Assembly: GCF_019059575.1 (NCBI RefSeq) | Contig: NW_024882206.1 | Coordinates: forward strand, 1 to 64,000 | Source of the DNA: Amphibalanus amphitrite | Lineage: Eukaryota > Arthropoda > Thecostraca > Balanomorpha > Balanidae | Direction: 5' to 3' | Length of the DNA stretch: 64,000 nt | Shown here: positions 1,181-61,107 of the stretch, piece by piece | Layout: each line of letters starts with the position of its first letter | Position numbering within the stretch: the first letter of the stretch is position 1 | Position numbers and translations under genes: made by a program | The notes under the pieces: model-generated | Database searches by the model: none | The model's input: only the letters and a program-made list of their open reading frames with translations | Told to the model about the DNA's origin: nothing

Positions 1181-3713
1181 ATGAACCCTGCACCAATTCC
1201 TCTGAAGCTGGTGATGATGGTGACGATGCTGGTGCTGATCACAACTCCCATCCACGCCCTAGAAGAGTCTGATGACGTCACCGCCCGCGAGCAAAGGATT
1301 GTGTCTATATTTCTGCCACCTTTTCCGAAAGGGTTCGGCGAAATTAACCCGCGCCCTGCTGGGGGTCCTGGATTTCCACGCCCTGCTGGGGGGGGGTGTT
1401 TGAACACCCCCCCTTGTAACTCGGCTCCTGGGCCACGTAGCGATACGCAGAAGGCGGCGTTCGAAAGAGCGTAAAAAATAATGACGAAATCACTTCGGTC
1501 AATTTTTTGGTCAGGTCAAAGGTCAGGTCACCAGAGGTCATTGAAGGCAAAATTTCGCCGATTTCCAGGTCGAATGTCTAAAATTTCCAAGAAGCCAACG
1601 CATAACTCGGGAACCAATAGAGCTACAGCGCCGCGGAAAAGCGCATTCGATAGCCCTATTAACGCCCTTTCTGAGTAATTCTCTCAGATTTGGCCTAACG
1701 TCAACGGTTTTGCCTGCAGGGGGCAAAAACTGCAAAAATAGCCGATTTTTTCGAAAACAGTTTTTCTGCAATAACTTTTGACCCAAGCCTTGTACGAGCT
1801 TACTTTTACGGGCATCGTGTTCCTCTCGTCAAGACGCATCGAATGAACTATAACTTGACCTTGAAAGGTCAACTTGAAAATTTGACCTCAGGTCAAGGTC
1901 ATGACCTGACCGGAAAGGGTCATGTTGCATATCAGTCGATCCGTATCGTCGAGCTGAACACATCTAAGGCGTTTTCATCGCTCTAGCATGCCTCTATCAA
2001 AAGTTATTTGCGAAAAACTGATAGATACCATTCGTGACCTAAGATGACCTCAGGGCATAAACAAGGGTCACGGACACCATTTTCAAGTTCAGTGTGTCTA
2101 AACCACTTGTAATTCGGTGTTTGGGAGTGTTTATAATGTCTTTCATCCAAAAGAGGCGCATTTCAATTTTCTCCCATTGACTTATAATGGGGAGGTCGCA
2201 AAATTGACCTGACCTTAGGTCATCGATATCAAAATTCTGAGATAAACATTTTGTACATGCTATTGCTCTTAGCAATCGCTGAAAGTTTCAAAGCGATCGG
2301 TCACTCGGTGTAGCTATGACAGACATTGAAAGTTTTTATGAGGTGAGGTCACTTCAAGTGACCTGGTGACCTGACCTTGAATGACCTTGGTCTGAAATTT
2401 TCACAACATGTGTAGAATTGATGTGTGATAAGGTGTACCAAAAACGGCGGCGCTCCGCGCCGCCGTTTTTGAGATATTCGCGAAAAACCACAAGGGGGGG
2501 TGTTCAAACACCCCCCCCCCAGCAGGGCGCGGGTTAACGGCACGTGCGCTCAGCTTGGTGAGTTTATGAAAAATGATCATATGAGCAATAAATCAGCCAA
2601 ATACTCGTATATCTATGCAATTATCTTTCATTTTAGATTTTGCTGAGGACACATATAGATGCAAATAATGAACGTGGGCAAATGCAGTTGGCACGTGTTT
2701 TGTTTGATTTTCTAATTAATCTAGTCAGTGCTCTTGCTGTTCTTTTGAAGAAAGTTTACCTCAGTGGATTCAGGATTGTATGATGGATACTGTACCCATG
2801 CTGTTTTGCCTGACGTCACGATACGTGCGTAAAAAAACGTGCTTCTCTCTAGCTTCGAACTCGCTGCCACCGAGTTAAAAGACGGCAGCTTTATCCATAG
2901 GGTCTCATGGAGATCATTAGTACCGAGTCATTGATCACAACGGCCACGATCATAAATCAGCATGCCATTAATGCCATCAATGCCATCAATTGATGCCATT
3001 AATGCCAAAATTAATCGCTTGAGCATTGTGACGTTACTTTACAGCCAAATGACATTTTCTTCCGTATTTGTTCATCGGAAGTATTAGTCACTGGCTAATG
3101 TGTTCCGCATTTTAGTTGGATCATTTAGCTTTATTTCAGGACTATCAGATCAATATTCCTTTACTACTCAGGTTGGTTCACTAGGGAAATAAAGGCGCCG
3201 TGGTGACGTCATCAGAGGAAATCCTTCACGTTCAAATGAAGGGGTCATTTGAATTGCTGATTTTGGCTCGATATAGTCCTATTTTTTACTTTCAGCCCCA
3301 TTTGTCGTAATGAGGCAAACTCATTGTTACATTGGTACAACTTTTGATGACACATAATCCTTGTTTTTTTTTCTCCAGCTCGCTCGAAAGATGATGACAT
3401 TTGCATGCATGCCTATGGGTGAAGGGAGATTCTACCGCCGTGGTGACGTGACAGTAAAGGGATTCTGGAGCTCGTGAACGGGGGCTGTATCAGATAGTTC
3501 TTACCCTGCACAACACTAAAAACACACTGTTCTCAGTATAAACGGTACAAACCTATGTATATACCTTAGTTCTCAATGTGTGCAACAAAAGAGAACACAT
3601 AAACGTTGTTAAGCAATGGATATTTCTTTACCAGTTCCTCCGATTTTTTTTCAGCTGAAACTGCTGAACTACCTGTTGACCTTCAACTCCATCTTCAGCT
3701 TCCGGACCCTTGA
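1181..3713 (+). CDS. Putative small secreted peptide gene, first exon interrupted by element E1
   Basis: The exon starts after a good acceptor (CTTTTGTCTGCAG, ending 1146). An ATG at 1181 opens a signal-peptide-like run: MNPAPIPLKL, then a hydrophobic stretch (VMMVTMLVLITT), then PIHA and an acidic start LEESDD. The frame runs to 1347, where E1 is inserted at TTAA. On the far side (2538-2557) the same frame continues to a clean donor (G|GTGAGT at 2558). A strong acceptor with eight T's ends at 3654. The next exon fits the phase and gives AETAELPVDLQLHLQLPDP before a TGA at 3711-3713. AATAAA follows at 3769. The joined product would be about 81 aa. I do not recognise the family. Other exons may exist, and the gene could be dead or E1 polymorphic. 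Confidence 0.4.
1348..2533 (+). mobile_element. E1: piggyBac-like non-autonomous element, private word CCCTGCTGGGG
   Basis: Flanked by TTAA at 1344-1347 and 2534-2537. The 5' end has the word CCCTGCTGGGG twice, about 28 bp apart. The 3' end has it once, inverted. Inside each end a G-run and a C-run enclose TGTTTGAACA (5') and its exact reverse complement TGTTCAAACA (3'). The interior is rich in AGGTCA/TGACCT, has a central inverted repeat around GACGCATCGAATGA, and a GGCGGCGC hairpin near 2450. It encodes no transposase. The interior is closest to E6. It sits in a putative coding exon. Confidence 0.88.
2558..3654. other. Putative intron, no other feature seen
   Basis: AT-rich, non-coding. 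GCCGTGGTGACGT recurs near 3192 and 3440. A short TGCCATTAA/TGCCATCAA repeat lies at 2960-3007. It ends in a long polypyrimidine tract before the acceptor at 3654. Confidence 0.35.
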
Positions 3714-3768
3714 CCTCCAGAGCGGAGACTCGCCATCATCACGTGCCGTTCAGTTATGTTTTTCCGCC

Positions 3769-3774
3769 AATAAA
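3769..3774 (+). promoter_or_regulatory. Poly(A) signal AATAAA
   Basis: AATAAA lies 56 bases after the stop codon of the putative secreted-peptide gene. The position suits a terminal exon. Confidence 0.4.
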
Positions 3775-3799
3775 TGCACCTTGCTGTTTATTTGTCACC

Positions 3800-4680
3800 T
3801 CTTTTAAACAGCCAACGTGTTCATGCATTTCTGTAGCATTGTAACTGATTTTTAACTTTGATATTACGACACCCATCTCTTATTTCGGACTAATGACGTA
3901 CAATCTGACTTCCCACCAATGGTTTAATCAGTGACTTGAAATTATCACTTTGAATTTGCCTTCCACCTTAGCGTGTTCCAGCGTTAATTTCCCACAAAAG
4001 TAATCAGAGATCGCCTATTTACTACTTGTGCTGAATTCACGTCACAGGTTCTTAAGCAAGCTTATCGTTTACCATGACTCTCGAAATGCAGCCTCTGTAC
4101 CGATCCCGCCGAATCCTAGCAAGGAACTGAAAGCGGACCAACTCGCTTCTTTCTTGTCCACTGGAAAGCACCTTCACACTGCGCAAATGTCCAGCTAGCA
4201 GTTCCGTTGAGAAATATGAGACATTATGTAGTCAAGCTATGATTACTATAGTATGAAACGCATCCGTGTTAATTGTAGTATAGCGTATTTAGGTGATATT
4301 CTTAGCTGCAGCACACAATCTCATTTCGAAAAGCTGCAAACGGCGTTGAGTCGAATTTGGACATCAAGCCTCCAAATCGTTCCCGCAATAAAAAGTACAA
4401 TACCAAAACATCCATAAAAAGACCTGAGCCCTAAGGATCCAACACTTTATCGGAATGTCAAAATCTTTCCAACGCCCTTTTATTGTTACACAGGAGCTCC
4501 AGACCATGTTATGTAACCTATTACTAGCTGACCCCTAAACCTCTCCTTACAACCTCAGCCCCAGAAGGTACTCTTTCTCGCTAAAGCGCTGAGCGTTCCC
4601 CTAACCGTCTCAGCTAAAGACGTGGAGTTTCACTGACAACAACCTAACATGAACATCCTGACATTCAAACACAAACATTT
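3800..4680. other. Intergenic, nothing recognised
   Basis: No sustained codon-like frame, repeat or RNA gene seen. Confidence 0.5.
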
Positions 4681-4691
4681 CCCTGAACACA

Positions 4692-5190
4692 CAGGCACGT
4701 ACCCAGGATTTCACCCAAGAGGGGGCCACCTGCTTCCGAAGGGACCCTTAGGTCACCCGGGGGCCCCAGGCCGCCCAGGCGACCAGGGGCCCCCAGGCAG
4801 CCAGTGGCCCTCAGGGGTCCCAGGCAACCAGGGGCCCCCATGCGACCAGGCCCCCGGCTACCAGGGCCCCCTAGGCGACTAGGAACCCCAGGCAATCAGG
4901 GGCCCCCATGCGAAGAGGCCCCGGCTACCAGGGGCCCCCTAGGCGACCAGGGGCCCAGGAAACCGGGGGCCCTCGGATGACTGCAGGGGTCCATCGAGTC
5001 ATCAGGGCCCCTCGGGTAACCAGGGGCACATAAATGAAACTTTGATATCATTTTTTCTTCCTAGTAAAAGACGTTTTATCCAGTGTTTGAAAAAAATATA
5101 CCGGGGCCTGAGGGGCCCCCTGAGCGCCGAAGGCGCTCAGCAGGGGGCCATGGCCCCCGTGGCCCCCCCCCCCCCTTGGGTACGTCACTG
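4692..5190. mobile_element. hAT-like non-autonomous element with 8-bp target duplication
   Basis: Exact 8-bp direct repeats TGAACACA flank it (4684-4691 and 5191-5198). The ends are CAGGCACGTACCC and GGGTACGTCACTG, an imperfect inverted repeat starting CAG, as is usual for hAT. The interior is a GC-rich run of repeats of the type AGGCGACCAGGGGCCCCC (about 4730-5030). Open frames over it look collagen-like (GxP) only because of the repeat. Confidence 0.85.
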
Positions 5191-5198
5191 TGAACACA

Positions 5199-6511
5199 TC
5201 ACTTCACACGTGAAGCCTTCACGTAACGCTCTCTGTCGATAACACACATCATTCAGTGCAAGGCTGTTGTATAAGTTTGTGTATTTTTCCGACGGAGGAG
5301 CCCTACAAAACATGGCTGCAGCAGTCATCTCCTAGATGATTCCTCATCGTCAGATTGAAGAGCAGTTGTTTGACGTCACATGGCTGGGTTTGTCAGGTGA
5401 TTTTTTCTATCGCCGTAGGCTGACAAGTATACAGTAAGCAGACAAGTGTAAGTAGAATAACAAATAAAAGCGTAGTGAACTAATACGCTGCACTAAATAA
5501 ACAGCCTCTTCGTTACATTGATGATGGCCTGGGTTTGATGGAATCGTTTGCGGGGCTGACTCGCTAGAGTGACTGAGATGCAATGTTTTAGGCCGCGAGG
5601 GCGCGATGTTGTGCTTAACACATACGGAAACGATTTCGGGTTGAGTATACAATGAGCTGACATCGCGTGCGTTTGCTTTCTACATGAATAATAAATACAT
5701 GACTGGGTGAAATGATGTAAAGGTGATTTGAATTTCAGAGGCAGCAGATTTACTGATTGTGTTATACGCGTCAATCCATAATTACACCGAGAGCCTGGCA
5801 AGGCATTTGCGTTACTTATTGATAGATTTGCCGCAAATATGTATTGACACTCCTAATGAGTCTACCAAAATACCTGACAGCTATTATGCATACTTTGTAA
5901 GATGTGTGGTGTAGTCCAACACCAAAAACAGAATTCCTAAGTTGCCAGCCACACCTGTTTGTTGTTACTAACAGTCGCACTATATCCCTCCCTCCCCTCC
6001 CCTTGCCCACTGTCACAGCAATGGGTGACCTTGACCCCATTAGCCCCCTCCCCCCCCAGACACACACATACTCACCGGCCCAGGAAGACATCCGACTTCC
6101 AAGAACTCGCGGCAGTTTCCGCGTGATTACGACGAAATTAAAGCACCAGGTCTCTTTGAGCAATCCCCCGGCGCGTCAAGACGCCTCGGGCACAAGAGGT
6201 CAAAGGGACGGTGTCGTGCCCTGAGGCGATAGTGACGAGATATCAGGAGCTCGGTTCCGAGAGTTCTGGGAAGACTGGAGGTGATGCCAGCTGTCCAAAG
6301 CAGTCCTCTGAGTTGGTGAGGAAAGAAACGGGGTTCACCGTGGAAAAGTGGTGGGACTGTCCTCAGGAAATTGATACCCAGACAGGAAAAAATGGTTGTC
6401 GGTTCGAATACACATATAATGCAATTTGTAAGATTTTGCGAAGCATGCTAAGAACAATTTTTAATTCTATGTTAAAAAACGACAATTGGGTGGGCTCAGC
6501 TGGATCAGAAT
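5199..6511. other. Intergenic, nothing firm
   Basis: Frames of 80-115 codons occur on both strands but overlap one another and show no domain. One + strand frame (6211-6549) runs into E2. Confidence 0.4.
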
Positions 6512-6515
6512 TTAA

Positions 6516-7412
6516 CCCTCGCATGTGTGCGGCGTTTTCCAGCTTCTAATGTGTAGGGGGGGGGGGTCGGTTGGACCCCCCCCCCCCTTGCCGTTTGGCC
6601 CCTGATCGAGCTAGAGCTTCGCGGAAAAAACGAGCGTGTTGCCCGTGACGAGAGGAAGCCGATGATACCCAACTTTAAGGTCCTAGGTCATTGGTTGACC
6701 TTCCAGGTCAGGTCAATGACCCAAAGCCGGGAAAATCGGGACCTATTAGAAAGTCGTAAAGTGTGGCTGCTAAGGGGTTTTTCGGGGTGCTGATCACGAA
6801 TATCGTGTTAGTTTTGATCACAGATGATGTCTTTAAGCATTTAGACCAGGTCGGGTCAGGTCAGGTCAGGTGAATCAGTAGGCGTCGTGACGGGTATTCG
6901 TAGTACGTGTCAACCGCCTCTGACAGCTTCGTAACATGTTACGAAGGCACCAAAACTACTTCGTAAATGTTCAAATGGTTGCTAAATTCGAATTCAGCTC
7001 CAAAAACTAGCCTAGAAACATGTAAAACTCGAAAAAGTGAACCGAGGTCACCCGAGGTCACCAAAGGTCAATGACCTGACCTGACCTTCAGGTGACCTTG
7101 ACACCCACCCTAATGCATGGGAGCAACATCAAATCACATGTTTGAACGTTTGAAACCACGAAAAGCTTGCAAACGCGCGGCTAATGCGAGCCGACGTACG
7201 CCGAATCGCGATTCCGGCCAAACATGGTCTCGGAAAAGAGGTCACAGGTCAAAGGTCATTTGGGTCAGGGTCATGAAATTTTCAGGGTAGGTGTCAAATT
7301 GATCAATGCGAGGGTACTGAAAGTTTCGTCGCGATCGGCCGCTTTTTACGCGAGTTATTCGCGAAAAACCATGGGGGGGTCCATCCGACCCCCCCCCCTA
7401 CACATGCGAGGG
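6516..7412 (+). mobile_element. E2: piggyBac-like non-autonomous element, private word ATGTGTA
   Basis: TTAA at 6512-6515 and 7413-7416. The word ATGTGT occurs in the outer 5' end, again before the 5' G-run, and inverted (TACACAT) at the 3' end. The hairpin centre is TCGGTTGGA at 5' and TCCATCCGA at 3', near reverse complements. The interior, with clustered AGGTCA/TGACCT, is almost the same as that of E7 although the end words differ. No coding capacity. Confidence 0.87.
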
Positions 7413-7416
7413 TTAA

Positions 7417-8957: not shown

Positions 8958-9196
8958 ATCACAGCTGCAGAGTCGGAGTCGGTCGGAGTCGACAGTTTTG
9001 CCCGGAGTCGGGAGTCTGAGTCGATTTTCGGAAGCCGGGGTTTGGAATGGAGTCGGAGTCGAAGTCTCGAAAATGCATCGACTTCGCAGACCTGTGACGC
9101 AGGGCTGCGTTGTCGGGGTCGGTCGGAGTCGACAACTCCCCTCGAAGACGGAGTCAGAGTCGGAGTAATAAAAAATCCATTGACTCCGCAGCCCTC
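8958..9196. repeat. GGAGTC-rich minisatellite with short inverted ends
   Basis: Many copies of GGAGTCG/GAGTCGG occur on the + strand. The inner part (about 9100-9194) begins AGGGCTGCG and ends CGCAGCCCT, so it may be a tiny hairpin element inside or derived from the array. Confidence 0.55.
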
Positions 9197-9539
9197 ACCA
9201 CCACCATTACATTAACAGACACCACCAGAAGCCATCACTTACCACCAAACTAATCACCACTGTGCTCAGCTATACCCACACGCCCGCTTCCTGTCACCGC
9301 GGCCAGACGTCTCGTGTGTTGACTGAGCTTTGTGACGTCAGAGGTCAGGGGTCACGGTGGCTGCCGGAGGTCGGGACAGGATGGGGGCTGAGTGGCCAAT
9401 ATAGACTGGCAAGTGATAGCGTAAGACCATGGATTCGGAATCGGTGAGAGTTTTTGAACTGCTAATAATTCTGAACCTTCTAAGGTACGTTTTATTTACC
9501 CATTAATCGAATACGTCAAACTCCTTTTCTTATTCTTTT
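9197..9539. other. Intergenic, nothing recognised
   Basis: CACCAC-type low complexity at the left. No gene seen. Confidence 0.45.
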
Positions 9540-9685
9540 TATAATAATAATAATCCATTTATTTCGCACCGATAATTCACGGTACATATTCAACACATAA
9601 CAATACACACCAACACAACACACGAACATGCAGACATAGCACAGCTACGTTTTACCCATTAAGTCAGGCATCTAGGTCATTACAT

Positions 9686-12600
9686 CTAGGTGGTCCCGCC
9701 TTGGTCCCGCCTCATCATGCGTTCATTGACTATACGCTCAATGTTCGACATAAATATGTTTTGTAAGTCAAATGGAGTTATGACACTGAAATCCAAGCCT
9801 AGTAGGTCGTAGCGTCTCCGTATTGCGAGGCTAGCTTTCGCAGATAATCCATTACGGCCTATTACACTATTTCTAATACACTGGACAATACCATTACTGC
9901 TTTGATTGATGCGACGGTGAAACATGAGCTGTCTTTTAGCCAGAAGCATAGGACAAGTAAGTAATTTGACTCGATGACACAGTTCATGATTTCTGGTTCC
10001 AAGGGGCAAATTCATAAGCTTTTTAATACACCGATGATACGCTACATGCATTTCACGAAGAGATCTCTGATTGGTATCAACATTCCATAGTTCACATCCA
10101 TACATATGTGTACAGTATGACTTAAATAATTTTATAAGTAAACTCTTATTAGCATGCCTGAGCTTTGCATAAAGCATGTTGGTCATATAGTACATTGAAC
10201 GCTTTACCCTTCGAATATCGGGCACATCACATAAGTCATTAGAAATGATATGGCCAAGGTATTTAAATTGACTGACCCATTTCAGATTCTCACCACACAG
10301 TGCGATTTTTGGCTCCTTAGAGTTCATTAAATGACTAGCTTTATAAGGCTTCCTAGGGTTAAAAACCATGCACACAGTTTTTTGCACATTAAACCTTATA
10401 TCTCTGGACACAGCAAAACATTCACACTGATCCACCAGAGCCTGAAGCCCTTGTCTGGTGGGGGATAGAAGCACTATATCATCCGCAGAGGCGATGACAC
10501 TGACGGCACAATCGCCAACAAAACATCCAGTTCGAAGAGAACGCAACTTAATCAACAGATCATCAATATATATGTTGCGGGCCAAGTGCGAAGGCTAGTC
10601 CATTCGCGAATGGCCTAGTCCAAGTGCGATAATGCACTTGGACTAGGCCGTTTGCGAATGGACTAGTCCATGTGCGTTATTGCAGTTGGCCTAGGCCGTT
10701 TGCGAATGGACGGGCGTTTATGCTCCCAGTCCAAGTGCGAAGTCAGGCCAAGTGCGAAATATCCAGCAAAGTGACGTCAACTTGGCAAGTCAACTTGGCA
10801 TGTGCAAAGTCCCGTGTGAAATGATGCGTGCACCGCACTCACCACACACAAGCCGCACCGTCCCGGTACACCACACCAGAGCAGAATGAATCGAGCGCCA
10901 CAAACTCGACCAAGGTCAGGTCGGGTCATCAGCGGGGAGCCCGGAGCACGGTACTAATGGTCTCCGCACACCACGCGACTCCCCGCTGTTCGAAGGTCAC
11001 GGGGATATTTGACCTCCCCAGACCCAGATCGGTGGCCGAAGCCTGGCCAGCGGCAACACGTTGCTATAATTTCCGCGATGTGCAGGGTTCAGCGGAAAGT
11101 CGCATCCCGAATGGACCAGGTGGGTGGAGACCTTAACCCAGACTTGCGCCAGCTCGCAGATCTGCTCCGGAGAACAAACTAAACATATAGACGCAGTGGC
11201 GTCGCCACGGATTTTCGACTAGGGGATCTGGTCGGACGGTCAGTCAAAGTAATCCCCACCAAATACTGAAAACTCCTCGGATTTAGACAATTTTATTTTG
11301 AAAATGCACCAAAATCGTTATTAAAATATTTCATTTTATTCTTGATCGATTTTCGTGGCCAAAAGTGTGTGTGTGGGGGAGGGGGGGGGCGTCGGACCGG
11401 CATATTTTCAAGAATGTGTGTGTGTGTGTGTGGGGGGGGGGTCCGGACCCCTCCGACCCCCCCCCCCCCGTCGGCGACGCCCCTGCATCGACCAGCGGTC
11501 CCCCATTCATTCGGAATCGTACCCCAATCCGAGGATCCATGCTTCCGGCGGCTAAGTGCAACGCCACAAACCCGTCCGTTCGCAAACGGCCTAGGCCATT
11601 CGCGAATGGCCGGCCATTCGCGAATGGCCGGCCATTCGCAAACGGACTAGTCCGTTTGCAAACGGACCGCCATTCGCAAACGGCCTAGTCCATTCGCGAA
11701 TGGACTAGTCCGTTCGCAAACGGACTAGCCTTCGCACTTGGCCCGTAACATATACATTGAATAGCAATGGGGAGAGGATTCCGCCCTGTCTTACACCATT
11801 CTGGATGGAAAATGACACTGATTCCCTACTGGCCCATTTGACACTCATTCTCTGATGCCCGTACCAGTGAATAAGAAGTTTCAAATATATTGGGGGAACT
11901 TTTCGTTGATCAAGTATCTTAAAAAGCGTGGCATGACACATTCTGTCAAACGCCTTACTCGCATCTAAAAAGGACACATACACCGAACTGCCTCGCTCTG
12001 TGTAATAGTTCACTGTCTCTTTAAATGCATAAACAGCATGAGATGTCGAATGGCCATCCTTGAATCCAAATTGGGATTCACATGTCTTTAAGAAGGGAGC
12101 TAGCTTTTCAACCAGAATAAGTTCTAACACCTTTGATATGGTTGTCGATAGGGCTATAGCCCTATAATTTGATTTGTCGTCCAACGCACCATTCTTATTC
12201 TTGACAATGGGGACTAACAAAGAATAAATTAGGCTGTCAGGAAGCACACAATGATTTAGCATGCAATTGAACAAATGTGCCAAAAGACATGGCAAAGATT
12301 CTGCATGTAGATGTAGCAGGTGGTCAGCAGACACCCCATCATGTCCAGCTGTTTTCCCACTTTTCAGCTGACGAAGAGCAGAAAGCACGTCTTTATCAGT
12401 TATTGGTGGTGTCATATTAGCCCTACCAGATGGTAGGCCAGCGATGACAGCAAAGTCACTACTACAGCTACGATCATTAAAAACTGACATGAAATATTCC
12501 TTCCACATAGCTAGAATCTTTTCATCGCCAGCTATATTACCAAAGCTCAGAGGAAGGGAAACACCACCGCCCAAGTGTCTCTTAAGCAATAACCAGAAGC

Positions 12601-15600
12601 GATCTAGGCTCTGGGCCGAAAGAGAATAAGCCAGCTTATTGGCTAAGAGCCGATCTTCCTCCCTTTTACATTTCCTCATGGCATATTTAAAACTCAGCCT
12701 AGTCAGTCTCATGTGGGAAGCAGCTGCACCTTCCTTAGTAGAGCCACAACGCCTCCAATCAAGAAAAGCTTTGCGAGCTAATTCATGCTTAAGCTTAACA
12801 CTTTGATTCCAGCCCGAAATGGCCTTTGAGTTCCATTGCCGAACTAACGTTTGTGGAATACATTGGTCTGCACCGGATGTGATTACCTGAATCATAGTAT
12901 TGTAAATATTGGAAATACTATCAATATGCTGAGCACTATTGCAGTTTACTGTACAGTCTCCTTGGAGATCGTCCGTGATAGTTTCAAAGTGGGGCTGTAT
13001 CCGTGTAAACACGTACTGATTATATGCTGTTATTGCTGCCTCGGTCGCATTCCCCCATTGCAACTTGGCACGCCTAGGCTTAGGAGGGACAGGTTTAACT
13101 ATCGCAGACGGTACAACCTTAACCCGGCAGTTGCTGGGGTATTTCGCCACCCACCGTTTGCTGGGGGGGGGGGGGGGGGGCGTTAAACGCCCCCAGCCGA
13201 TAACTCGAGAACCAATAGGCACAGCGAAACGCACGAGGCGGCAAACGAAAGAGCGCGACGAGACGCTTCAGATGAGTACTTTAAAGTTGAATTTTGAGGT
13301 CACAGGTCGGGTCAAGCTCAGGTCAAACACCTGAAATCGGGCTTTCAGTAGCATGGACTTCAGGACTTCGCAATGGGCGCCTCTCGCCATAAACTCTGTC
13401 AAAACGGTGCACAATCCATCTTATAAGGCCTACAAGAGTGTCAGCTCCATGTAGGGGCCAGTCAAGCATAGGTCAGGGTCAAGGTCAGGTCAACCGGGTA
13501 GGCACATATCCCCGAAAATCAAAACTGATATTCGCAGCCTGTGACACATGTTTTATAGGTAATTTGGGGCGTAGAACACGATGGTGACATTTATTTTATC
13601 ATATGTGTACGTGCTTGGCTCAAAAAGTTCAATTTAAGAAATTCATGTATCATGGTCGTGAAGTAGTCACGAAAAATTGCCAAGATTCAGTTCAAGATTA
13701 TGGAAAATGCGGAACGATAATCAATAATCGAAGATAGCCATTGGATTGATCATGGTATTGGCAGTCTAATGGCGTTTACAGCATGTCTGTATGTCTATTC
13801 TGTGATTTTATATGATTTTTTGAACATATGCCGTTTTTGGTCGAAAACTCAGAAATCATGACGTCACTAAAACCTCGATATCTCAAAAATTTTCCGACCG
13901 ATTTTTTTAACTTTGTCACAATTAACTTCAATCAATTCCCTACAGGTACCCAAAATTTGGCGCGCTTTATGCTATGGCCCGGCGAAAAAAGTGGGGGCGT
14001 TTAACGCCCCCCCCCCCCCCCAGCAACTCGCGGGTTAAATGTAACGCACAATGGCATATGATCGATTGCACTAATCTGATAACTGACTGAAATATCCTCA
14101 ATACAATTATGCAAATTCTGGTTCGTTAGACAATGATCTAACCAAGATGTAGAGTAGTTAGCAGCACACACATATGTGTATGTACTACTTAAAGGTCCCA
14201 ACAATTGCATATCTGACATTATAAGATTATTATCCTCACAAAACTCGAGAAGTTCCGACATAAAACGTGAACCATATCCATTGGCGTTACAATCGCCTAG
14301 CCCTCGCCCTGGCAGGGCATTTTTCATAACACGGCCTGGCAGGGGGGGGGGGGTCGATGCGACCCCCCCCTCGCGATTGGCTCCTATGGCACCTAGAAAC
14401 ACCAAATTTGGTAGGTAGGTGGGTCCCCTGGAGTTCTCGCCCCTATGCAAATTTGGTTGCTCTAGGTCAATATTTAGGGGGGTTTTGGGGGGGTATAAAT
14501 GTAAAAATTTCGCTAAAAACATGTCAAAAGTGTTTCGCTTATAACTTTTGATCTATTTAAGATAGAGCAAAAGAAAAGCACCAGTAAACTCAGCACGTCA
14601 AGGCGCGTCGAATGCTATACTTTTAAGCTTGCTTAAGTGTACTTAAAGTTTTTCTTAATTTTTAAGTGAACTTTAATTTATTAATTAAGTTCAACTTAAC
14701 CAAATTGCATCATATCGCATATCGTTCGATTCGGCTGATCACAAGGAACACAATGACACCATTTTTTAAGCTCTAGCTTCATTATGTGCCAAGTTATTGG
14801 CAAAAACGTCATTTGACCTCGGTTGACCTCATTTGACCTGACCCATGGATAAGTACACCAAACAAAGAAGCACCAAGTGACCTGCTGTTAAGTATTGTGG
14901 TTTCAAAGCACAAAAGTGATAGAACGAAGCGGATATCTCCAGTATTTTCCGAATTTAGTATTTTCCCATAGGCTTAACATTATGACGTAATGACCTCTAA
15001 CTGACCTCAGGTCAGTGACCTCAAAAACCCGAACTATATGTTATACAACTCGGTGAACTTAGCACACCCTGAAAGTTTGAAGGAAATCAGTCAAAAACTG
15101 TGAGTTGGACAGGTGCAAACAGAAAATTGAAATTTGACCATGACCTTGTACCGGTTTTTCTGACCTGGTGACCTGACCCAAGGTCACCCGGACCTGAAAT
15201 TTTCAGTTCATATGTAAAAAGGTTGCTCCATAGGCTGTGCCAAATTTGGCGGCGCTGCGCGCCGCCGTTTTTACGCTATCTTCGAAAAACCTTAGGGGGG
15301 GGGGTCACATCGACCCCCCCCTGCCAGGGCGAGGGCTAGTATTCCATATAAACAAGTTTGGGCGCGAATTATTTCAAGTGCGCATGTGAGCTCGCCGAGA
15401 CACATGCAAAACTTCTCATAGCTATCCAGGTCCCTATAGTTTGTAGGAAGGTAAACATTGATTAGAGACACGTTGAGAACCTTAACTGCAAGCGATGGTT
15501 GAAGAACCTTTCTCCACAAAATAGCTACCCCACCAAATGGTCTGCCATACAATAGACCATTACCAGAGTCGAAGGAGGTAGTTCCTAGACCGCTGAAATG

Positions 15601-15747
15601 TTCATGAACGTTATTCAACGTATGCAATTCGAACTTTGCAAGCCATGTTTCCTGAAGAAACACAATGTCGTAGCTGTCACAAATAGTTCGAAGCTCAGAG
15701 GAAGACGATTTTAGGGACTGGCAGTTGAATGAGCATACTCTTAGCAT
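9686..15747 (-). CDS. LINE ORF2 (endonuclease-reverse transcriptase), split by three insertions
   Basis: Segments run 15747-15336, 14296-14035, 13118-11751 and 10568-9686; the 4-bp target duplications are counted once. Removing the inserts gives one open frame of 975 codons including the stop, by my count, starting ATG at 15747. The endonuclease shows SFNCQSL, FLQETWL, GGVAILW, INVYLPT, GDCNAN (spanning the E4 site), SWLDHCLT and IDHMPL. The reverse transcriptase shows VSFLDASKAFDRM, NGVRQGGILSPLLFN, FNVYIDDLL (spanning the TATA insertion) and the catalytic SADDIVLL. It would act by nicking DNA and priming reverse transcription at the target. Apart from the insertions I see no stop in frame, so the LINE was whole or nearly so when first hit. 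Confidence 0.88.
10573..11750. mobile_element. Palindrome-word element (TATA target), inserted in LINE reverse transcriptase
   Basis: Terminal inverted repeats start TGTTRCGGGCCAAGTGCG. Flanks are TATA (10569-10572 and 11751-11754). Counting TATA once restores the LINE reading FNVYIDDLL, whereas counting only TA would not. The subterminal regions (10573-10760 and 11576-11750) are arrays of short palindromes: CCATTCGCGAATGG, CCGTTTGCAAACGG, GGACTAGTCC, GGCCTAGGCC and TTCGCACTTGG. The middle is unique sequence with no recognised protein and holds a smaller candidate element. Confidence 0.85.
11194..11485. mobile_element. Small hAT-like candidate nested in the palindrome-word element
   Basis: It starts CAGTGGCGTCGCC and ends GGCGACGCCCCTG, an inverted repeat beginning CAG. 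The interior has GTGTGTGTG and long G- and C-runs. No convincing 8-bp target duplication: TATAGACG against CATCGACC is weak. Confidence 0.45.
13123..14034 (+). mobile_element. E3: piggyBac-like non-autonomous element in LINE ORF2, private word TTGCTGGGG
   Basis: TTAA at 13119-13122 and 14035-14038. The word (AGTTGCTGGGG / GTTTGCTGGGG) is present twice at 5' and once inverted at 3'. The hairpin centre is CGTTAAACG at 5' and its exact reverse complement CGTTTAACG at 3'. Removal with one TTAA restores LINE frame VTFKVVP between endonuclease and reverse transcriptase. The interior shares a GACACATGTTTTAT block with E8 and E10. Confidence 0.9.
14301..15335 (+). mobile_element. E4: same family, inserted at CTAG in the LINE endonuclease, private word CCTGGCAGGG
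   Basis: Flanks are CTAG (14297-14300 and 15336-15339), not TTAA. The frame proves the site: removal with one CTAG gives GILGDCNAN. The word CCTGGCAGGG occurs twice at 5' and inverted once at 3'. The hairpin centre is TCGATGCGA at 5' and TCACATCGA at 3', one base from a perfect reverse complement. The interior has TGACCT clusters, a central GCGTCGAATG..TCGTTCGATT inverted repeat and a GGCGGCGCTGCGCGCCGCC hairpin at about 15249. Confidence 0.9.
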
Positions 15748-15758
15748 AGAGGATGCAT

Positions 15759-16618
15759 CTATCTAGTGACATGAGCTGTTATGCGATCTACACTAGCACT
15801 CCTAGCCATCGGTTTGCCCTGATGAAGCTGTCGATCCTCAGTTTGATCTGCAGCTTTAGCTTCCTTGGGATGGTAAAACCTTTTGATTGATACATGAGAA
15901 GGCCATTTATCTGGGATCATGACACGATCCTTAGAATCAAGGGGTATGGTTACTTTGTACCCCTTGTACCCGTACTTCTCAGCACAGTGAGCGATCTCAG
16001 TGATCTCAGTGACGACCGATTTGTCCGCGCCCGGGCCCAGCAGCCAGTTCACATGTGATCGGACTGCCTCACATGCGTGGTGCTCGTGTGGAGGCGACCA
16101 ACGAAGAGATGTGCTACTCGAGGTGGTGGTGCGACGCCTCTCAGCAGCGTCGAGGAGCTTACCCCAGTAATCACAGCCTTACTGCGACTGGAAGGCCTCT
16201 TCCGTCGGATGACCTCGGTAAAGCCGTCATTGTCGGTGTTGGCAGCCCGAAGTTCAGGCTGTGCGGTCGTCTGCGACATCGGCCGTGAAGATCCCGAAGC
16301 TGTTTCTTGCTGAATGTGCAGCTGACGGGAGCGATCCTCGCGCTCTTCTCCATCTTGGTGCGGTGTCATGTCTGATGACGATGGCTGCTGAGTCCCCGGT
16401 CTTGGAGAGGGCCGCTCCAGGGTCGGCGATGGCACTGGTGGCCGTGCCAAGGTAGCGGATGATGACGGCGCCGCCGGAGCGGATGACGTGCCGGCAGCTT
16501 GGGCGTACGTCAGAGGCGGAGTGGACATGGCCGGCTGCGTTTGCAATTCCAGCATCGCCTGCTTTAGGCCTTTCATCTCGTTTTGCATCTGGGCAAATTG
16601 TCCAAGAAGAACGGACAT
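15759..16618 (-). CDS. LINE ORF1 (nucleic-acid-binding protein), one frameshift
   Basis: An ATG at 16618 opens MSVLLGQFAQMQNEMKGLKQ, a coiled-coil-like N-terminus. A Pro/Ser/Thr-rich linker follows, then DGFTEVIRRKR, then VAHLFVGRLHTSTT, which resembles the start of the RNA-binding fold seen in CR1-type ORF1 proteins. The frame then breaks near 16070-16090 and resumes as AVRSHVNWLLGPGADK..YKVTIP..WPSHVSIKRFYHP, ending at a stop at about 15759. ORF2 starts about 11 bases downstream. The break is the only defect I see in either LINE ORF besides the insertions. Confidence 0.75.
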
Positions 16619-26430: not shown

Positions 26431-27437
26431 CACGCGCACCGACGGGGGGGGGGCGGATATCCGCCCCCCCTGATGTTTTTCGCGGATAGCGTGAAAACCG
26501 CGGCGCGTAGCGCCGCGAAATTTGGTACGACTATTCTCTCATCAATTTTACACATGGTGTGCAATTTTGAACCTCCTAACTCTCAAGGTCAGGTCACCAG
26601 GTCACTTTGAATGACCCAACCTCAAGTCACTTTTTTGCAACTTTGTCACCGTGCCAGAGCTACATTAGATGTCGGAGGCCTTTGAAAGTCGCAGGATGTT
26701 ATTAGGTCATTAGTAGCTACAATTTGTATATCCCGGAATTTTGATGTCGGTGACCTAAGGTCAGGTCAATTTCGCGACCTCCCCATTATAAGTCAATGGG
26801 GGAAAAATCAACTCCCTGTTTTTACCACTAAAACGGGTCGGAATGGCCCCATATACCATACATGACTTCATATACGATCAACCTTCACTACCTTGAGGTC
26901 TGTTTTGCTGTTGGGCAGCTGTAAGGTCATGTGACGTCATCAAAGGTCACCAAAGGTTTTTTGCCAATAACTCCGTACAGGAACAAGATACAGCCGCGCG
27001 GATGGTCTCATTGTGTTCAGCTCGTTAAGACGCATCGAATGATATACATGATGACCTCGAGGTCACGTGACCTGAGGTCAACCTTTGACCTTGACCTTTC
27101 GAGGTCAACATATATATCATTCGATGCGGATTGACGAGAGGATCACGATGATGCCCTTAGTTTGTTCCTATCTTGACTAATTCGAAAGTTATTCGAGAAA
27201 AACTCCATATCTAGCGCCGCCATTTTGACTTTTTCGACCCCTGTGACGTCATCTTTGACCTGACCTGAAAATGACCCTTATAAAAATTGTAGACCTTGTC
27301 CGTGCGTATCCGATGCCGTTTACCGCTTGTCGCTATCTTGCTTCGTTCTCGAGATCTCAGGGGGGGGGGGGGGGGCGGTCATCCGCCCCCCCCCCCCGTC
27401 GGTGCGAAGTTGGCGCAGACCCCCGTCGGTGCGCGGG
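26431..27437 (-). mobile_element. E5: same family in reverse orientation, private word CACCGACGGGG
   Basis: TTAA at 26427-26430 and 27438-27441. The doubled end lies on the right: the word, read on the + strand as CCCCGTCGGTG, occurs twice there and once inverted at the left. The hairpin centre is CGGATATCCG at the left and CGGTCATCCG at the right. The interior has a GCGGCGCGTAGCGCCGC hairpin (about 26500), dense AGGTCA/TGACCT, and the central CGCATCGAATGATAT..ATATCATTCGATGCG inverted repeat (about 27031-27128). Confidence 0.88.
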
Positions 27438-29129: not shown

Positions 29130-30812
29130 AGGGACTATCCCACCTTTAACATGGGGTTTGAGTTGAGATAGCGAAGTTTGCGGCGAGGTTCAGAAACCAC
29201 CATCTATCTAGGTTGCAACCCCCGCGGCCTCTTGGTGTTGAAGAAATTTGTTCCCTTCATTTGAAAATGGGCCTTGTACAAGGCCCATCTTCAACATGGA
29301 GCGACCGTTAGTGTGACGTCACCTTGTTTAGTCATTCTGATTTAAATGGGTTCGTTCGTTGAAAAATCGCTTAAAACTTGGTCTGAACTTTGTTGTGGTG
29401 CCTACAGAGTAAAAAGAATCAGCTTTATGACAGTAATGTGGCCTGGGGAAGGAGGTAATTTTGGCCTGTGACGTCACATATTTGAAAGTTTGTGTTTGGA
29501 ATATGGGAAGCCTAAGATGTTTAACCCGCGCCCCAGTGGCGGTCTCAGCCAACTTCGCCCTAGTGGGGGGGGGGGGGGGGGCATATGTTACCACCCACCT
29601 CTAACTCAAAAACTAAGAGGGATAGAAAGACGCGGTAAAAAGCAGTCGATAGCTCTCAATGCGTACGTTTGAAAGTATTTCAGTCATTTTTCATCTTAGA
29701 GCAATATTGGGGTCACCAGAGGTCATCAAAGGTCAAAATTTGCCAATGGTCATTATATTTTTCAGAAAACATGCCGTTATCTCAGGAACTATGGTAGCTA
29801 GAAAAACGCATGAAACAGCAATCGATAGCTTTTGAACTCTTCTTTTGATAAGGACATTATCAAAATTGACCTCAGGTCAACGGTTTAGCCTCCAGAGGGC
29901 AAAAACTCCAAAAATAGCTGTTTTTACGAAAAGTGTTTTTCGACAATAACTTTCGACTACAAAAAGCCACAACATTTCTACTGCCAGAATCGTGTTCCTC
30001 TCGCCGAGACGCGTCGAATGAACTATGATTTGACCTTGAAAGGTCAACTTCAGAATTTGACCTCAGGTCAAGGTCATGACCTTACCGGAAAAGGTCATGT
30101 TGCATATCAGTCGATGCGTCTCGGCAAGACAAACACAATGAGACCATCCCCAGCGTTCTATCTCTTTCCAATCTCGAGTTATTGGCAAAAAACTGTTTGT
30201 AGCCTCAAATGACCTCGGATGACCTTTCTAGAGGCTATCAGCAAAAATGACACCTTGGTCATCACGGGTGGTCCAAATCGTTGTGATTCTGAAATATTTG
30301 GACTGTTCCTATGCGTACACACGGATCTAGAGGCATTTTCATTTTTCTCCATTGACTTGTAATGGAAAGGTCACGCCACTGACCTGACCTTAGGTCACGG
30401 ATATAAAAAATCTGAGATATAAAAATTGTAGGCGCCCATAACATCATGCAATCCACCAAGTTTAAAACCTTTTCGACAAACACTGCAGGCTGGACATGAT
30501 TGCAAACTTTTTTTTAGGCTTGGTCAGTTAACTTGACCTGGTGACCTGACCTGACATGACCTGGGGTCAAAAATTTTACACATTGTCCAAAATTGATGTA
30601 CCAAAAGCTATCCCAAGCGGCGCAGCGCTACGCGCCGCGGTTTTTTATTTACACGCAAAAAACGCGACAGGGTGGTAACATATGCCCCCCCCCCACTGGG
30701 GCGAAGGTTAATGAAAAATAAATGCCAGAACCGTGTTCCAGGTCATCCAATCTATAAAGTCGGGCACAATTTAACTGGTTTTAACAACATTTTAGAAGGT
30801 GGGATAGTCCCT
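29130..30812. mobile_element. TTAA-flanked AGGGACTATCCCACC element, host of E6
   Basis: TTAA at 29126-29129 and 30813-30816. The ends are AGGGACTATCCCACCTT and AAGGTGGGATAGTCCCT. E6 lies inside, so this element was there first; without E6 it is about 0.5 kb. A perfect 22-bp palindrome around GGGCCTTGTACAAGGCCC lies at 29267-29288. Confidence 0.8.
29525..30707 (+). mobile_element. E6: same family, private word CCCCAGTGGGG, nested in a TTAA element
   Basis: TTAA at 29521-29524 and 30708-30711. The word CCCAGTGG / CCCTAGTGGGG occurs at 5' and CCCCACTGGGG, inverted, at 3'. The hairpin region GGGCATATGTTACCACCC at 5' returns exactly as GGGTGGTAACATATGCCC at 3'. The interior matches E1 over the central GACGCGTCGAATGAACTATG block and its AGGTCA array. 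Confidence 0.88.
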
Positions 30813-33140: not shown

Positions 33141-34012
33141 CCGTCGCCCGTATTGGTGTTTTTCCAGCCGCGAACGTATATGGGGGGGGGGGGGTCCGTT
33201 GGACCCCCCTTGTCGTTTCGCCCTTGATCGAGCTAGAGCTTCGCGGAAAAAACGAGCTTGTTGCCCGTGACGAGAGGAAGCCGATGATACCCAATTCTAA
33301 GGTCCTAGGTCATTGGTTGACCTTGCAGATCAGGTCAATGACCCCAAAGGCGGGAAAATCGGGACCTGTTAGAACGTCGTAAAGTGTGGCTGCTATGGGG
33401 TTTTTCGGGGTGCTGATCACGAATATCATGTTAGTTTTGATCACAGATGATGTCTTCATGTATTTAGGCCAGGTCGGGTCAGGTCAGGTCAGGTCAACCA
33501 GTAAGGATATTCGTAGTAGGTGGCAACCGCCTCTGACAGCTTCGTAACATGTTACGAAGGCATCAAAACTACTTGGTAAATGTTCATATGGTTGCCAAAT
33601 TCGAATTCAGCTCCAAAAACTGGCCTAGAAACATGTAAAACTCGAAAAAGTGAACCGAGGTCATCAAAGGTCAATGACCTGACCTGACCTTCAGGTGACC
33701 TTGACACCCATCCTAATGCATGGGGGCAACATCATATCACATGTTTGAATGCTTGAAACCACGAAAAGACTGCAAACGCGCGGCTAATGCGAGCCGACAT
33801 ACGCCGAATCGCGATTCCAGCCAAACATGGTCTCGAAAAGTAGGCCACAGGTCAAAGGTCATTTGGGTCAGGGTCATTAAATTTTCAGGGTAGGTGTGAA
33901 ATTGATGAACGCGAGGGTACTGAAAGTTTCGTCGCGATCCGCCGCTTTTTACGCGAGTTATTTGCGAAAAACCATGGGGGGGGTCCGTTCGACCCCCCTA
34001 TACGGGCGAGGT
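33141..34012 (+). mobile_element. E7: same family, private word CCGTATA
   Basis: TTAA at 33137-33140 and 34013-34016. The word CGTAT occurs in the outer 5' end, before the 5' G-run (CGTATATGGGG), and inverted at 3' (CCCCTATACGGG). The hairpin centre is TCCGTTGGA at 5' and TCCGTTCGA at 3'. The interior closely matches E2, including the GAGCTAGAGCTTCGCGG block, TGTTACGAAGGCA and the AGGTCA runs. Confidence 0.88.
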
Positions 34013-45951: not shown

Positions 45952-47122
45952 CCCGCGCGGGGCTGGGGTCTCCAGCCGAACGCGCGGGGCTGGGGGGGGG
46001 GTAAATTTTACCCCCCCTGTTATCTCCCGAACTAATGGCCCGATTTGGAAAATTCAAAGGCCAATCGAAAGCTCTCATCACGAACTACTAAAAACATGTA
46101 CTTAATTTAAAGTTTGAGGTCAAGGTCAAGGTCAGGTCAAGGGTACAAATTGCAAGTTTCTACAGTATCGGCCTTGCACCGTAGTTGCCGAAGAATGGAG
46201 TCATGGACTGAGACTGATTGCCCAAAACGTGTTCTTAGGCTACCAAGACAATATTCGTTGCATACAATATCATTCAGAGGTCAAGGTCAAGGTCAGGTCA
46301 GGTCAGGTCAGGTCACCAAAAAACAAAATATAGAAAAGGGCATGTGCGACACATGTTTTATGGGTCATTTTACTCATAGAATTCAATAGGCACACTCAAT
46401 AAGTGATATGGACCACCTCTGGATGAATTTCAGGTCGAGGTCAGGTCAAGGTCAGGTCAAGTGAGGTCAAATTTTGAAGTTGGTTGTTAAGGCCTAAAAA
46501 GGTATCTATCTGATGCAGTTTTTCACGGCGAATCGAATGGTGCTATTTTTGTTTCCGTACGAGGTCTAGAACTTCCAAAAAAGTCATTTTTCAAAAATTT
46601 TGTGTGTCGTGACGTCATAAAATTTTGAATAACTCCCACATTTTTGAACCGATTCTTATAAAATTTGGTATGTAGGTGCACATAGACCACTTCTCTGACA
46701 TATATTCCGGTTTTTTCGATAGACTCAAAATTTTGGATTTTATAATGATTTTCCCAAAAAAGTCAGTTTTTTGAAAAAATTTAGGCCAAAATCTTAAATT
46801 TTCAAAAAACCGAGATAGCCATTTGATAGACAAAGTAAAATTACGTATAACCTTTTTTGTTACGTCTTGATTCCTTTAAAAATGAAGATGTTAGCGGCGT
46901 TTGAACTTTTGCCGTTTTTGAGGCGAAAATGGCGAACATGACGTCACTAAAACGTCAATTTCTCAAAAATTTTCCGACGGATTTCGCTCAAATTTTCAGG
47001 GAACGTGTCAAATTGATGTAAGAAAAGGTACTGAAAGTTTGGCGGCGCTGCGCGCCGCCGTTTTTGAGATATCGCAAAAATTCGCGAGGGGGGTAAAATT
47101 TACCCCCCCAGCCCCGCGCGGG
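45952..47122 (+). mobile_element. E8: same family, private word GGGGCTGGGG
   Basis: TTAA at 45948-45951 and 47123-47126. The word CGCGCGGGGCTGGGG occurs twice at 5' and once inverted at 3'. The hairpin centre is TAAATTTTA at 5' and its exact reverse complement TAAAATTTA at 3'. The interior has a long AGGTCAAGGTCAGGTCA array (46118-46470), the GACACATGTTTTATGGGTCA block and a GGCGGCGCTGCGCGCCGCC hairpin near 47041. It is inserted within a CTGTCGCC-rich minisatellite. Confidence 0.9.
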
Positions 47123-50427: not shown

Positions 50428-50512
50428 ACTGGGGGGGGGGGGGTGGAGCCCACTGGGGAGGGGGTTAGGGGGGTGGATGGAGGAGGGAGGATGGGTAGCA
50501 CGGCTGGGCGGG
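50428..50512 (+). promoter_or_regulatory. G-rich tract with quadruplex potential upstream of lectin gene
   Basis: Six or more G-runs of three or longer lie within 85 bases, about 290-370 bases before the lectin ATG. It may be a promoter element or low-complexity DNA. Confidence 0.35.
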
Positions 50513-50800: not shown

Positions 50801-59239
<8,439 letters not shown>

Positions 59240-59323
59240 ACAGTGCTGGATAAATCTGGAAATAACCAGCTGAAACTTGACTTTGCCGGATGCAGCCAGA
59301 TTCAGGCAGGCAGTTTCACCTGG

Positions 59324-59329
59324 AATAAA
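59324..59329 (+). promoter_or_regulatory. Poly(A) signal of the lectin gene
   Basis: AATAAA lies 84 bases after the TGA. A second AATAAA at about 59691 is an alternative. Confidence 0.7.
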
Positions 59330-59922
59330 TACGCACATAGACGTTTTGTTTTTCATTTGCCAAAGGTTTTTGAAAAAATGGCCGATTTCAATGTATTGTT
59401 TTGTGTTGTTACATTTTTGAGCATTTGGGCAACATTGTTGTTTTCAGAAGGGTTTGATGTACCCAAAATCAATTTACGTCGATTTAATCTAATTAAGTAT
59501 AAGACTCTTTCATGACAAGTCAGTGACATCAATATGTGGAATTTGTGTATGGAGTACATCTATGAAGTTGTCTGTTCAAAATACATGTTTTTGCGGTTTG
59601 GTTTTGAACACACAAAACACTTAGTGCTTATAGACGAACACGTAGGTATAATATACGGAAGCACGGTAAGTTCGTACGAGCGGTAACGAAAAATAAATAT
59701 TGCACATATATACGACACCTTGTAAACGCCTTTCTCTCTTCCTTGACGTTTTAGCTCAACATTTCTATAATCTCTTTTCACTTGACACTTCCATCAAATT
59801 TCAGAGAGCCTGCCCTTTAACGCATCACTTGAAGTGTCTGATACTTTAACGAAGAATGATTTAAAAACCAGACATCTATCGCTTCTAGTTATGGCTGGAA
59901 AAATGCATCTGGAAGGCCTTAA

Positions 59923-61107
59923 CCCGCGCCCCACTGGGGTCTGTGTATAACACGCCCTACTGGGGGGGGGGGGGGCTATTCATAGCCCCCCCCCTCCTAA
60001 CTCCGAAACTACTGGGCCGATCGTCAAAATTCAAACGGCGTCTGATAGCCCCGGAAAAACTATCGAGCGAAACCTAATTTCATTGACCTCGAGGTCACCG
60101 ATGACGTCACAGGTCAGGTCAAAGTAAAAACTATTAGCACTTTGGCTTGTTCACATTTTGGGCTCTGGCCGCCGTCTTACAAGTCAGATCAGGCTCATTT
60201 TTGGTTTCCACACTCGTGAACAGATGCTCTAGATACCTTGAGGGTACCAAACTTGTACTTTGATTTTCAGGTCAGGGTCAGGTCATCACAGGTCACGAAA
60301 ATATTATATCATGCGTCGGTCACGTGACACATGTTTTATGGTCCATTTAGGCCATAGATTTCGAATTTGATGTCGTCTGTGTCATTCAAGGTCATTTTGA
60401 GTCGAAATTAGCTTAGGTCAGGTCACTTTCAGGTCAAAAAAGGTCAAATTTTGAAGTTGAAATTTTTCAACAAAAAAGGTGTCTATTGGATGCAGTTTGA
60501 GCTCAGGAACACGATGGTGCCATTTATATTGGTGTACGATGCCAAATACGTACTGAAAAATTGATTTGAAAAATTAATAATTGTGAACTTTTTGCAATAA
60601 TGCGTATAACTTGGCCATTTTTGAAGATATTTAGCTAAAACTTGCTAGACTTAGTCATAATCATGCGTTCTGTCACATATATTCCGGTTTTTTCGAAAAG
60701 TCAATAACTTTTTGAAAAAAATATAAAAATATAAATTTTGAATATTATTATATAAAATTTTCGAAATTTTCAAAACTTTGAAAATCCGTGATAGCAGTTT
60801 GATAGCGCGGTCAATTCTGAGTCCTTTCATGCAAAGAAATTGGATCTAGCTTAAAAACTGAGCTCTTGGGAGCGATTGCCGTGGTTCAATGTTTTGCGTC
60901 GAAATCGGACGAACATGACGTCACTCTGACGTCATTTTCGGCCGACCTATGGTAGCTACGAAGTTCAAATTTTGACACAAGGTGTCAAATTGATGCAGCC
61001 GAAGGTACTGAAAGTTTTGCGTCGATTCGTCAAGCGGTTTGGAAGTTATTGCAGAAAAACGGGAGGGGGGGGGCTATAAATAGCCCCCCCCCCCAGTGGG
61101 GCGCGGG
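59923..61107 (+). mobile_element. E10: same family, private word CCCCACTGGGG
   Basis: TTAA at 59919-59922 and 61108-61111. The word CCCCACTGGGG and then CCCTACTGGGG occur at 5', and the inverse at 3'. The hairpin centre is CTATTCATAG at 5' and CTATAAATAG at 3', one base from the exact reverse complement. The interior is of the E3/E8 type with GACACATGTTTTATGG and AGGTCA clusters. It lies just downstream of the lectin gene. Confidence 0.9.

Follow-up and report, generated by a model that had tools for sequence, protein, structure and literature searches.

The 64,000 nucleotides of the barnacle Amphibalanus amphitrite analysed here (NCBI RefSeq assembly GCF_019059575.1, contig NW_024882206.1, positions 1 to 64,000 of the forward strand; hereafter the window) hold ten short repeats, E1 to E10, each with a terminal word of its own that stands twice at one end (the outer and inner word of the doubled end) and once, inverted, at the other (the single end). 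The ten repeats are ten different families, and the sampled members of each family have the matched word in common, apart from the odd one-base change. All ten are small elements built on the end plan of the piggyBac transposon, and the word together with the palindrome beside it is probably the recognition code of each family's own transposase. The pattern, first noticed in a sequence-only reading of the window, is real and well matched; its scale is that of family codes on a known end plan and not of copy-private codes on an unknown one.

Ten elements with self-matching ends

All ten elements lie where the sequence-only reading had placed them, and 1348 and 61107 are exact element limits, the flanking 4-bp duplications being excluded. 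Each element has one doubled and one single end with the matched word at three sites, measures 880-1194 bp counting both copies of the duplication, and wholly contains no open frame of at least 110 residues in the open-frame list of the window. The common layout is a duplicated TTAA (nine of ten elements; CTAG at E4), a CCC tip (bp 1-6), the word from bp 7 at both ends, a second word 26-27 bp inward of the outer one at one end (starting at element bp 33 or 34 in 10/10) and then, mostly, a palindrome. The tip begins CCC at 15 of the 20 window ends and with one-base variants at the other five (E5, E6, E7 twice, E9).

E1 (1348..2533, plus strand), a TTAA element without a transposase-sized frame and with its doubled end on the left, illustrates the plan. 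Its word CCCTGCTGGGG stands three times, as the outer word at 1354..1364 (plus; element bp 7-17), as the inner word at 1381..1391 (plus; element bp 34-44, 27 bp further in) and as the single-end word at 2517..2527 (minus), and its core TGTTTGAACA is present at both ends. E2 (6516..7412, plus) has the word ATGTGTA, with ATGTGTG as its outer form, and the cores TCGGTTGGA/TCGGATGGA; its sister family E7 (33141..34012, plus) has CCGTATA, with CCGTATT as its outer form, and cores unlike those of E2. The words of E3 (13123..14034, plus) and E4 (14301..15335, plus) are TTGCTGGGG, with the core CGTTAAACG, and CCTGGCAGGG, with the cores TCGATGCGA/TCGATGTGA. E5 (26431..27437, minus; word CACCGACGGGG, cores CGGATGACCG/CGGATATCCG) and E9 (58176..59069, minus; word CGCACATG, inner word CGCAAATG) have the doubled end on the right. 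The remaining three are E6 (29525..30707, plus; word CCCCAGTGGGG, inner word CCCTAGTGGGG, core CATATGTTACCACC), E8 (45952..47122, plus; word CGGGGCTGGGG at all three sites, core TAAATTTTA) and E10 (59923..61107, plus; word CCCCACTGGGG, inner word CCCTACTGGGG, cores CTATTCATAG/CTATTTATAG).

E3, with its duplicated TTAA, and E4 both interrupt a retroelement-like reading frame, and when the flanks are joined with one TTAA or one CTAG the frame runs uninterrupted across both sites, so that the boundaries and the length of the duplication are certain for these two elements and the CTAG of E4 is read directly from the frame of the empty site. As another copy of the E4 family, on the contig labelled C3, is flanked by TTAA, the E4 family seems to target TTAA and only rarely CTAG. 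By eye, the interrupted frames (9686-15762, minus strand) resemble those for a reverse transcriptase and an endonuclease from a non-LTR (non-long terminal repeat) retroelement.

For the word statistics we used the first 8 nt following the 6-nt tip in the ten window elements and 100,000 permutations. Outer and single-end words disagree at 2/80 positions within elements as against 4.5 of 8 between elements, inner and single-end words at 11/80 as against 4.9 of 8, and outer and inner words at 13/80, the mismatches between copies amounting to 4.5-4.9 of 8 over all three comparisons, and 0 of the 100,000 permutations reached any of the three within-element matches. This comparison, which the sequence-only reading had itself proposed, bears out that ends match within a copy far more than between copies. 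That the same word stands three times in every copy holds in this sense but not to the letter, as variants occur in the outer word of E2 and E7 and in the inner word of E6, E9 and E10 (T for C in E6 and E10). The hairpin described beside the word, between a G-run and a C-run, was likewise recovered as a palindromic core in most elements; the core of E6 is no palindrome, and the two cores of E7 agree better when one of them is reverse-complemented (1 versus 4 mismatches of 9). Two further E7 ends on contig C1, among the matches listed and comprising single ends only, have an identical core, and a hairpin inversion fixed in the E7 family is possible. The shared interiors that had been described proved uneven, with 93.9% identity between E2 and E7 but only 63-65% among E1, E5 and E6 and 57% between E8 and E10, the remaining pairs sharing shorter stretches.

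Terminal codes are shared within families

The proposal that each copy carries a code private to itself did not survive a search of the 807.5-Mb genome (labelled G000, with contigs labelled C1, C3, C44 and so on). With the interior of E2 as query we obtained 1,845 candidates, of which the best were scored, and among those listed there were 39 other full-length places (99%). We fetched 20 of these 39, namely the best interior matches, so that old copies are under-represented. These copies are 97.5-99.1% identical, and 20/20 carry the outer and single-end words of E2, one-base changes being confined to one inner word and two cores. Over the 21 E2 copies including that in the window, the word sites vary in 1/504 cells and the interior in 69/15,875; a shared terminal consensus, which the sequence-only reading had named beforehand as speaking against it, is thus what the copies show. 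Three pairs among the 20 share flanks, two of them in the same orientation. The third (L025 and L027, on contigs C1881 and C1196) consists of copies in opposite orientation at the same TTAA, with only one flank alike throughout (near-identical over 110 bp, the other over about 20 bp), and may reflect an allelic inversion, a re-insertion or an insertion into two copies of a repeat.

The same copies bear on the idea that the ends are matched by accident, through chance or through hypermutability of homopolymer-rich sequence. The lengths of both the G-run and the C-run do vary between E2 copies, as that idea would have it; the constancy of the words (1/504 cells, old copies being under-represented) and the permutations refute it, and we give it practically no probability.

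A second sample, independent of the window, was obtained by scanning 200 kb of contig C3 (C3:500001-700000) for pairs of doubled and single ends. Of 31 tips, 3 were without a partner; 17 pairings resulted, and 3 were dropped (133616-135338, 172448-173773 and 172755-174647) as combining ends from different elements. The same scan applied to the window gave one spurious pairing (13119-15339) and missed E6. The 14 elements that remain on C3 carry nine codes, namely E1 (two), E10 (two), E8, E4, and five families absent from the window that we define here as F11 (two), F12 (three), F13, F14 and F15; six of the 14 therefore carry codes of E1, E4, E8 or E10, one-base changes aside. Both E1 copies have the core TGTTTGAACA but the outer word CCCGGCTG, and one also has CCATGCTG at its single end, each a one-base change. 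An E4-type element is nested within an E10-type element, and this interrupted E10 copy (172448-174647) was omitted from the interior comparisons, which cover 13 of the 14.

Genome-wide, a pattern for the single end found 17,808 forward-strand matches as against 0 for the reversed control. The matches listed comprise 84 distinct ends, each counted once, all on contig C1 and with the minus strand incompletely represented; the following counts refer to these. They fall into 28 tip-plus-word classes, several of which are one-base variants or single ends, with 23 distinct words. The largest classes have 12, 11, 7 and 6 members, each with one single core, and the classes CCGGCCGA and CCCGCACAT vary in core. 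Exact codes of E1, E8 and E5 recur 12, 11 and 7 times, the single-end code of E7 was met twice more, and three different words are found beside the core TGTTTGAACA (12, 3 and 1 ends). Together the E2 copies and the codes recurring on C3 and C1 rule out a copy-private code; the window holds one member each of ten multi-copy families. The single-end pattern had 0 exact matches in viral contigs, which does not support viral carriage.

A transposase-bearing relative

The profile PF13843 (DDE_Tnp_1_7) has 116 matches over cut-off in the genome, many of them in long open frames, and we sampled the flanks of 24. Five of the 24 (on contigs C44, C527, C42, C171 and C1173) have ends of the E1-E10 kind, all with one code, both ends being covered for C44 and C527 and one each for the other three. 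The doubled end of this code reads CACGACCA/AACGACCA with the core TTGTTACGA, and the single end AACGCCTA with the core TTGTATCAA. At nine others (C1201, C103, C53, C43, C1, C366, C642, C852 and C150) one or both sides show other end types (tips CCCATTAG, CCCAGATC, CCCAGGAAC or CCCCCCAG), some, by eye, with a long palindrome beside one end; within the fetched stretch no element end was seen at the remaining 10/24. About position 499 of the locus on C527 (L069) two C44-type single ends stand head to head with one TTAA in common.

The element on C44 (C44:1060842-1064816; 3,975 bp) has a 667-residue open frame, stop to stop, which matches PF13843 with an E-value of 8.5e-70. In the Protein Data Bank (PDB) the transposase matches entries 6x67 and 6x68 (listed as 'Transposase'; we take them to be piggyBac structures) with an E-value of 1.2e-73 and piggyBat with 7.3e-31. 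A segment rich in Cys pairs, resembling the Cys-rich domain (CRD), lies at the end of the transposase region, in another frame in this copy. In piggyBac the doubled end lies 3' of the transposase gene, and the doubled end of the C44 element is on that side as well. Its single-end word differs from its outer word at 3/8 sites and from its inner word at 2/8.

Towards its single end F11, one of the miniature inverted-repeat transposable element (MITE) families defined on C3, is 81% identical to the C44 element over 373 bp, and towards its doubled end 86-88% over some 270 bp; on this similarity it looks like a shortened relative. Two further candidates were rejected: one F11 copy (F11_a) is no autonomous element, as the open frames in its 1.7-kb insert do not exceed 102 residues, and a locus on C387 considered as the partner of F15 takes its ends from a complete MITE, some 880 bp long, that lies next to the gene. 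We would place E1 to E10 in the piggyBac superfamily on their end anatomy and shared subterminal sequence, a PF13843 partner being provided only through the branch of C44 and F11.

Ends diverge more than interiors between related families

Ends were said to diverge fastest and yet to stay matched. Within the E2 family this does not hold, the words being no more variable than the interior, but it does between families. E2 and E7 differ at 12/42 end-code sites as against 45/734 interior sites (Fisher p 1.6e-5), E8 and F14 at 18/42 as against 90/1,021 (p 1.5e-8), and the C44 element and F11 at 19/42 as against 100/569 subterminal sites (p 7e-5), all three p-values being overstated because matched sites are not independent, a point that belongs with the reservations gathered below. 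Overall the three pairs are 82-94% alike inside and differ at 29-45% of end-code sites, with one to five changes at each of the five end sites. As the words are so constant within E2, change of the code seems to belong to active lineages.

The match itself is kept in most families. We tabulated one copy from each of 16 families, 15 of them MITEs and one the C44 element; outer and single-end words are identical in 11 families, inner and single-end words in 6, and 0/20,000 shuffled sets were as well matched. Three of the 16 (F11, F12 and the C44 element) have mismatches between outer and single-end word at 3/8 sites, and the outer word is unmatched in both F11 copies and in all three F12 copies as well as in the autonomous element.

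One way to obtain such a pattern is joint rewriting, in which one end or hairpin is copied onto the other by end conversion or by hairpin-templated or gap repair, with little role for selection. This would fit the finding that every one of the five end sites has changed between related families and that the E8/F14 core has changed symmetrically in both palindrome halves at both ends (TAAATTTTA at both ends of E8; CAGATTCTG and CAGAATCTG, one per end, in F14); the reverse-complement cores of E7 look as they would after a hairpin inversion, and a code that changes in active lineages rather than among E2 copies fits too. The unmatched outer words of F11, F12 and the autonomous element show, on the other hand, that joint rewriting is not obligatory. 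Moreover, position 4 is T in the inner word of E6, E10 and F14 but C in their outer and single-end words, a difference that copying should erase, and the 6-nt tip adjoining the word is not rewritten along with it. A mechanism that rewrites both ends together, which the sequence-only reading had named, is thus not needed, and we consider it unlikely; selection for matched ends, which it had named as the alternative, is the better-supported part of that reading.

Somewhat more can be said for a successful non-coding chassis acquiring both ends from another family when nested or adjacent elements recombine unequally or undergo gene conversion. Nesting does occur, in the E4-type element inside an E10-type one; the core TGTTTGAACA occurs with three words; and F11 resembles E4, E1, E8 and E5 on its single-end side (77-83%) and has an outer word that begins CCCGTA, as that of E7 does. 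Both ends would have to be exchanged, however, and among the window and C3 families no donor with the same word and flanking sequence was seen for E2/E7 or E8/F14, so that we hold this route to be doubtful.

The two halves of the palindrome covary, with Watson-Crick pairs in 25, 20 and 18 of 28 listed core strings at positions 1, 2 and 3 (family variants counted apart), and the G-run and C-run blocks might form stable hairpins. Both points would suit words that stay alike so that the two ends can fold or anneal as nucleic acid, in a transcript stem or by self-recognition of ends, and not so that a protein can read them. Such pairing does not predict the unmatched ends of the C44 element, nor a second direct word 26-27 bp inward at one end in all ten elements, where piggyBac, in the part of its description available to us, has a second transposase site; we regard it as very improbable.

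Recognition codes and their change

We favour the reading in which word and palindrome are read by the transposase of the family. The core domain of the protein would read the word and a dimer of its C-terminal Cys-rich domain the palindrome. Since one protein would serve five sites per element, these sites would have to agree and to shift together. New families may then arise by a joint, site-by-site divergence of transposase and ends, and the data favour such stepwise change of the code sites. The non-coding chassis would be carried over or recombined during the change of code, and ends would in consequence evolve faster than the rest and still stay matched. Perhaps a new code frees a lineage from host repression, or from the titration that defective copies exert in their many thousands.

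Several observations weigh against this interpretation. At the 24 loci sampled of the 116 PF13843 matches, no transposase lies within an element that has one of the E1 to E10 codes, and as the code of F11 differs from that of its closest autonomous relative, the pairing of code and transposase is putative even there. The words of that autonomous element are less matched than those of most MITEs, and the one-base change in the outer word of both E1 copies on C3 is one that a table with one copy per family does not show. Families with the tip CCCGCG begin CCCG and not with the CC[C/T]T usual in the superfamily. The length of the G-run differs among E2 copies, which is odd for a palindrome at a fixed distance, although the runs could have slipped after insertion or been misassembled.

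A variant in which a few piggyBac-type transposases move all families by checking the agreement among an element's sites and not a fixed sequence, so that the codes serve as a self/non-self tag and change freely together, appears quite improbable to us. If true, a single genome would house at least 20 families that have split from one transposon lineage and are insulated from one another.

Changes of specificity between a transposase and its ends are hard to see where a genome has kept no more than one or two codes. The 807-Mb genome examined here contains upwards of 17,000 such ends with about two dozen codes (counted from the ends listed on C1), and it also offers two pairs of sister families with more than 90% shared interior but different codes, partly matched families and a transposase-bearing relative. 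These would allow a stepwise reading of which sites change first and which transposase residues go along with them, and the codes may provide genome engineering with orthogonal piggyBac-type end pairs. With the many codes that coexist in it, ends that diverge more and yet match, and families that are partly unmatched, this genome makes a good test bed for the co-evolution of transposase and ends.

Other features of the elements and the window

The interiors of E1 to E10 contain AGGTCA, which we take to be the nuclear-receptor half-site, or its complement 127 times as against about 4.9 expected from first-order simulations, often as direct repeats; the C44 element has only 10 such sites in 3,975 bp. 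A G+C-rich hairpin (e.g. CGGCGGCGC..GCGCCGCCG) lies within 50-130 bp of the single end in E1, E4, E5 and E8, with paired changes in E5. Elsewhere in the window, at 52847-55536, a 153-bp unit in tandem arrays forms two opposite blocks and thereby an inverted repeat of 2.7 kb, with arms of up to 653 nt (96%). A scan of the window gave no Rfam family at gathering score and no tRNA.

Comparison with known systems

Searching the open-licence PMC literature by title and abstract opening for families with many codes, doubled words and G/C-run palindromes, we found nothing close among the papers listed except the description of the CMITEs of the coral Acropora (PMC2872659). In the part of it available to us these are TTAA-flanked MITE families of piggyBac type in which conservation between families is higher in the interior than in the terminal repeats, which is what we see in three related pairs, and the general phenomenon is therefore already in print. 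CMITEs measure about 100 bp, with a 75-bp conserved interior and repeats of 13-14 bp, as against 880-1194 bp here, and that part of the description, which we compared as a description and not by sequence, has no doubled word and no G/C-run palindrome. E1 to E10 resemble CMITEs in pattern; being of another size they are not classed with them. The same source gives CC[C/T]T as the hallmark tip of terminal repeats in the superfamily, and the fourth base of the barnacle tips is T in the families with CCCTCG and in the autonomous element and G in those with CCCGCG.

The ends of piggyBat (Myotis), as far as the accessible text of its descriptions goes (PMC11707139, PMC13405395), are likewise asymmetric and built of a tip, a repeated G motif and a palindromic P motif. 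They differ in having palindromes on the left end only, another G motif and unmatched ends, and piggyBat is the weaker match to the C44 transposase.

The closest likeness is to piggyBac of Trichoplusia ni (LE35/RE63; PMC7351741), and the statement that no described family is like this one falls with it, at least as regards anatomy. In the portion of that source available to us, piggyBac duplicates TTAA and its ends open with a CCC tip; the motif that starts at bp 7 recurs from bp 34 at just one of the ends and is accompanied by a palindrome, right-end bp 34-63 repeating left-end bp 7-35; at the left end the palindrome (bp 17-33) is bound by a dimer of the Cys-rich domain. The barnacle doubled end is laid out like the piggyBac right end, with the same offset (27 bp there, 26-27 bp in all ten window elements), and the single end like the left end. 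A doubled end, a self-matching word and a private hairpin are thus the usual look of transposase-binding sites in this superfamily. What differs, relative to that portion of the description, is that the palindrome here consists of a short core, specific to the family and flanked by a G-run and a C-run of variable length, that the tips are mostly CCCGCG or CCCTCG and not CCCTAG (which does occur at the C44-type single end), that E1 to E10 are without a transposase, and that at least 20 codes coexist in one genome.

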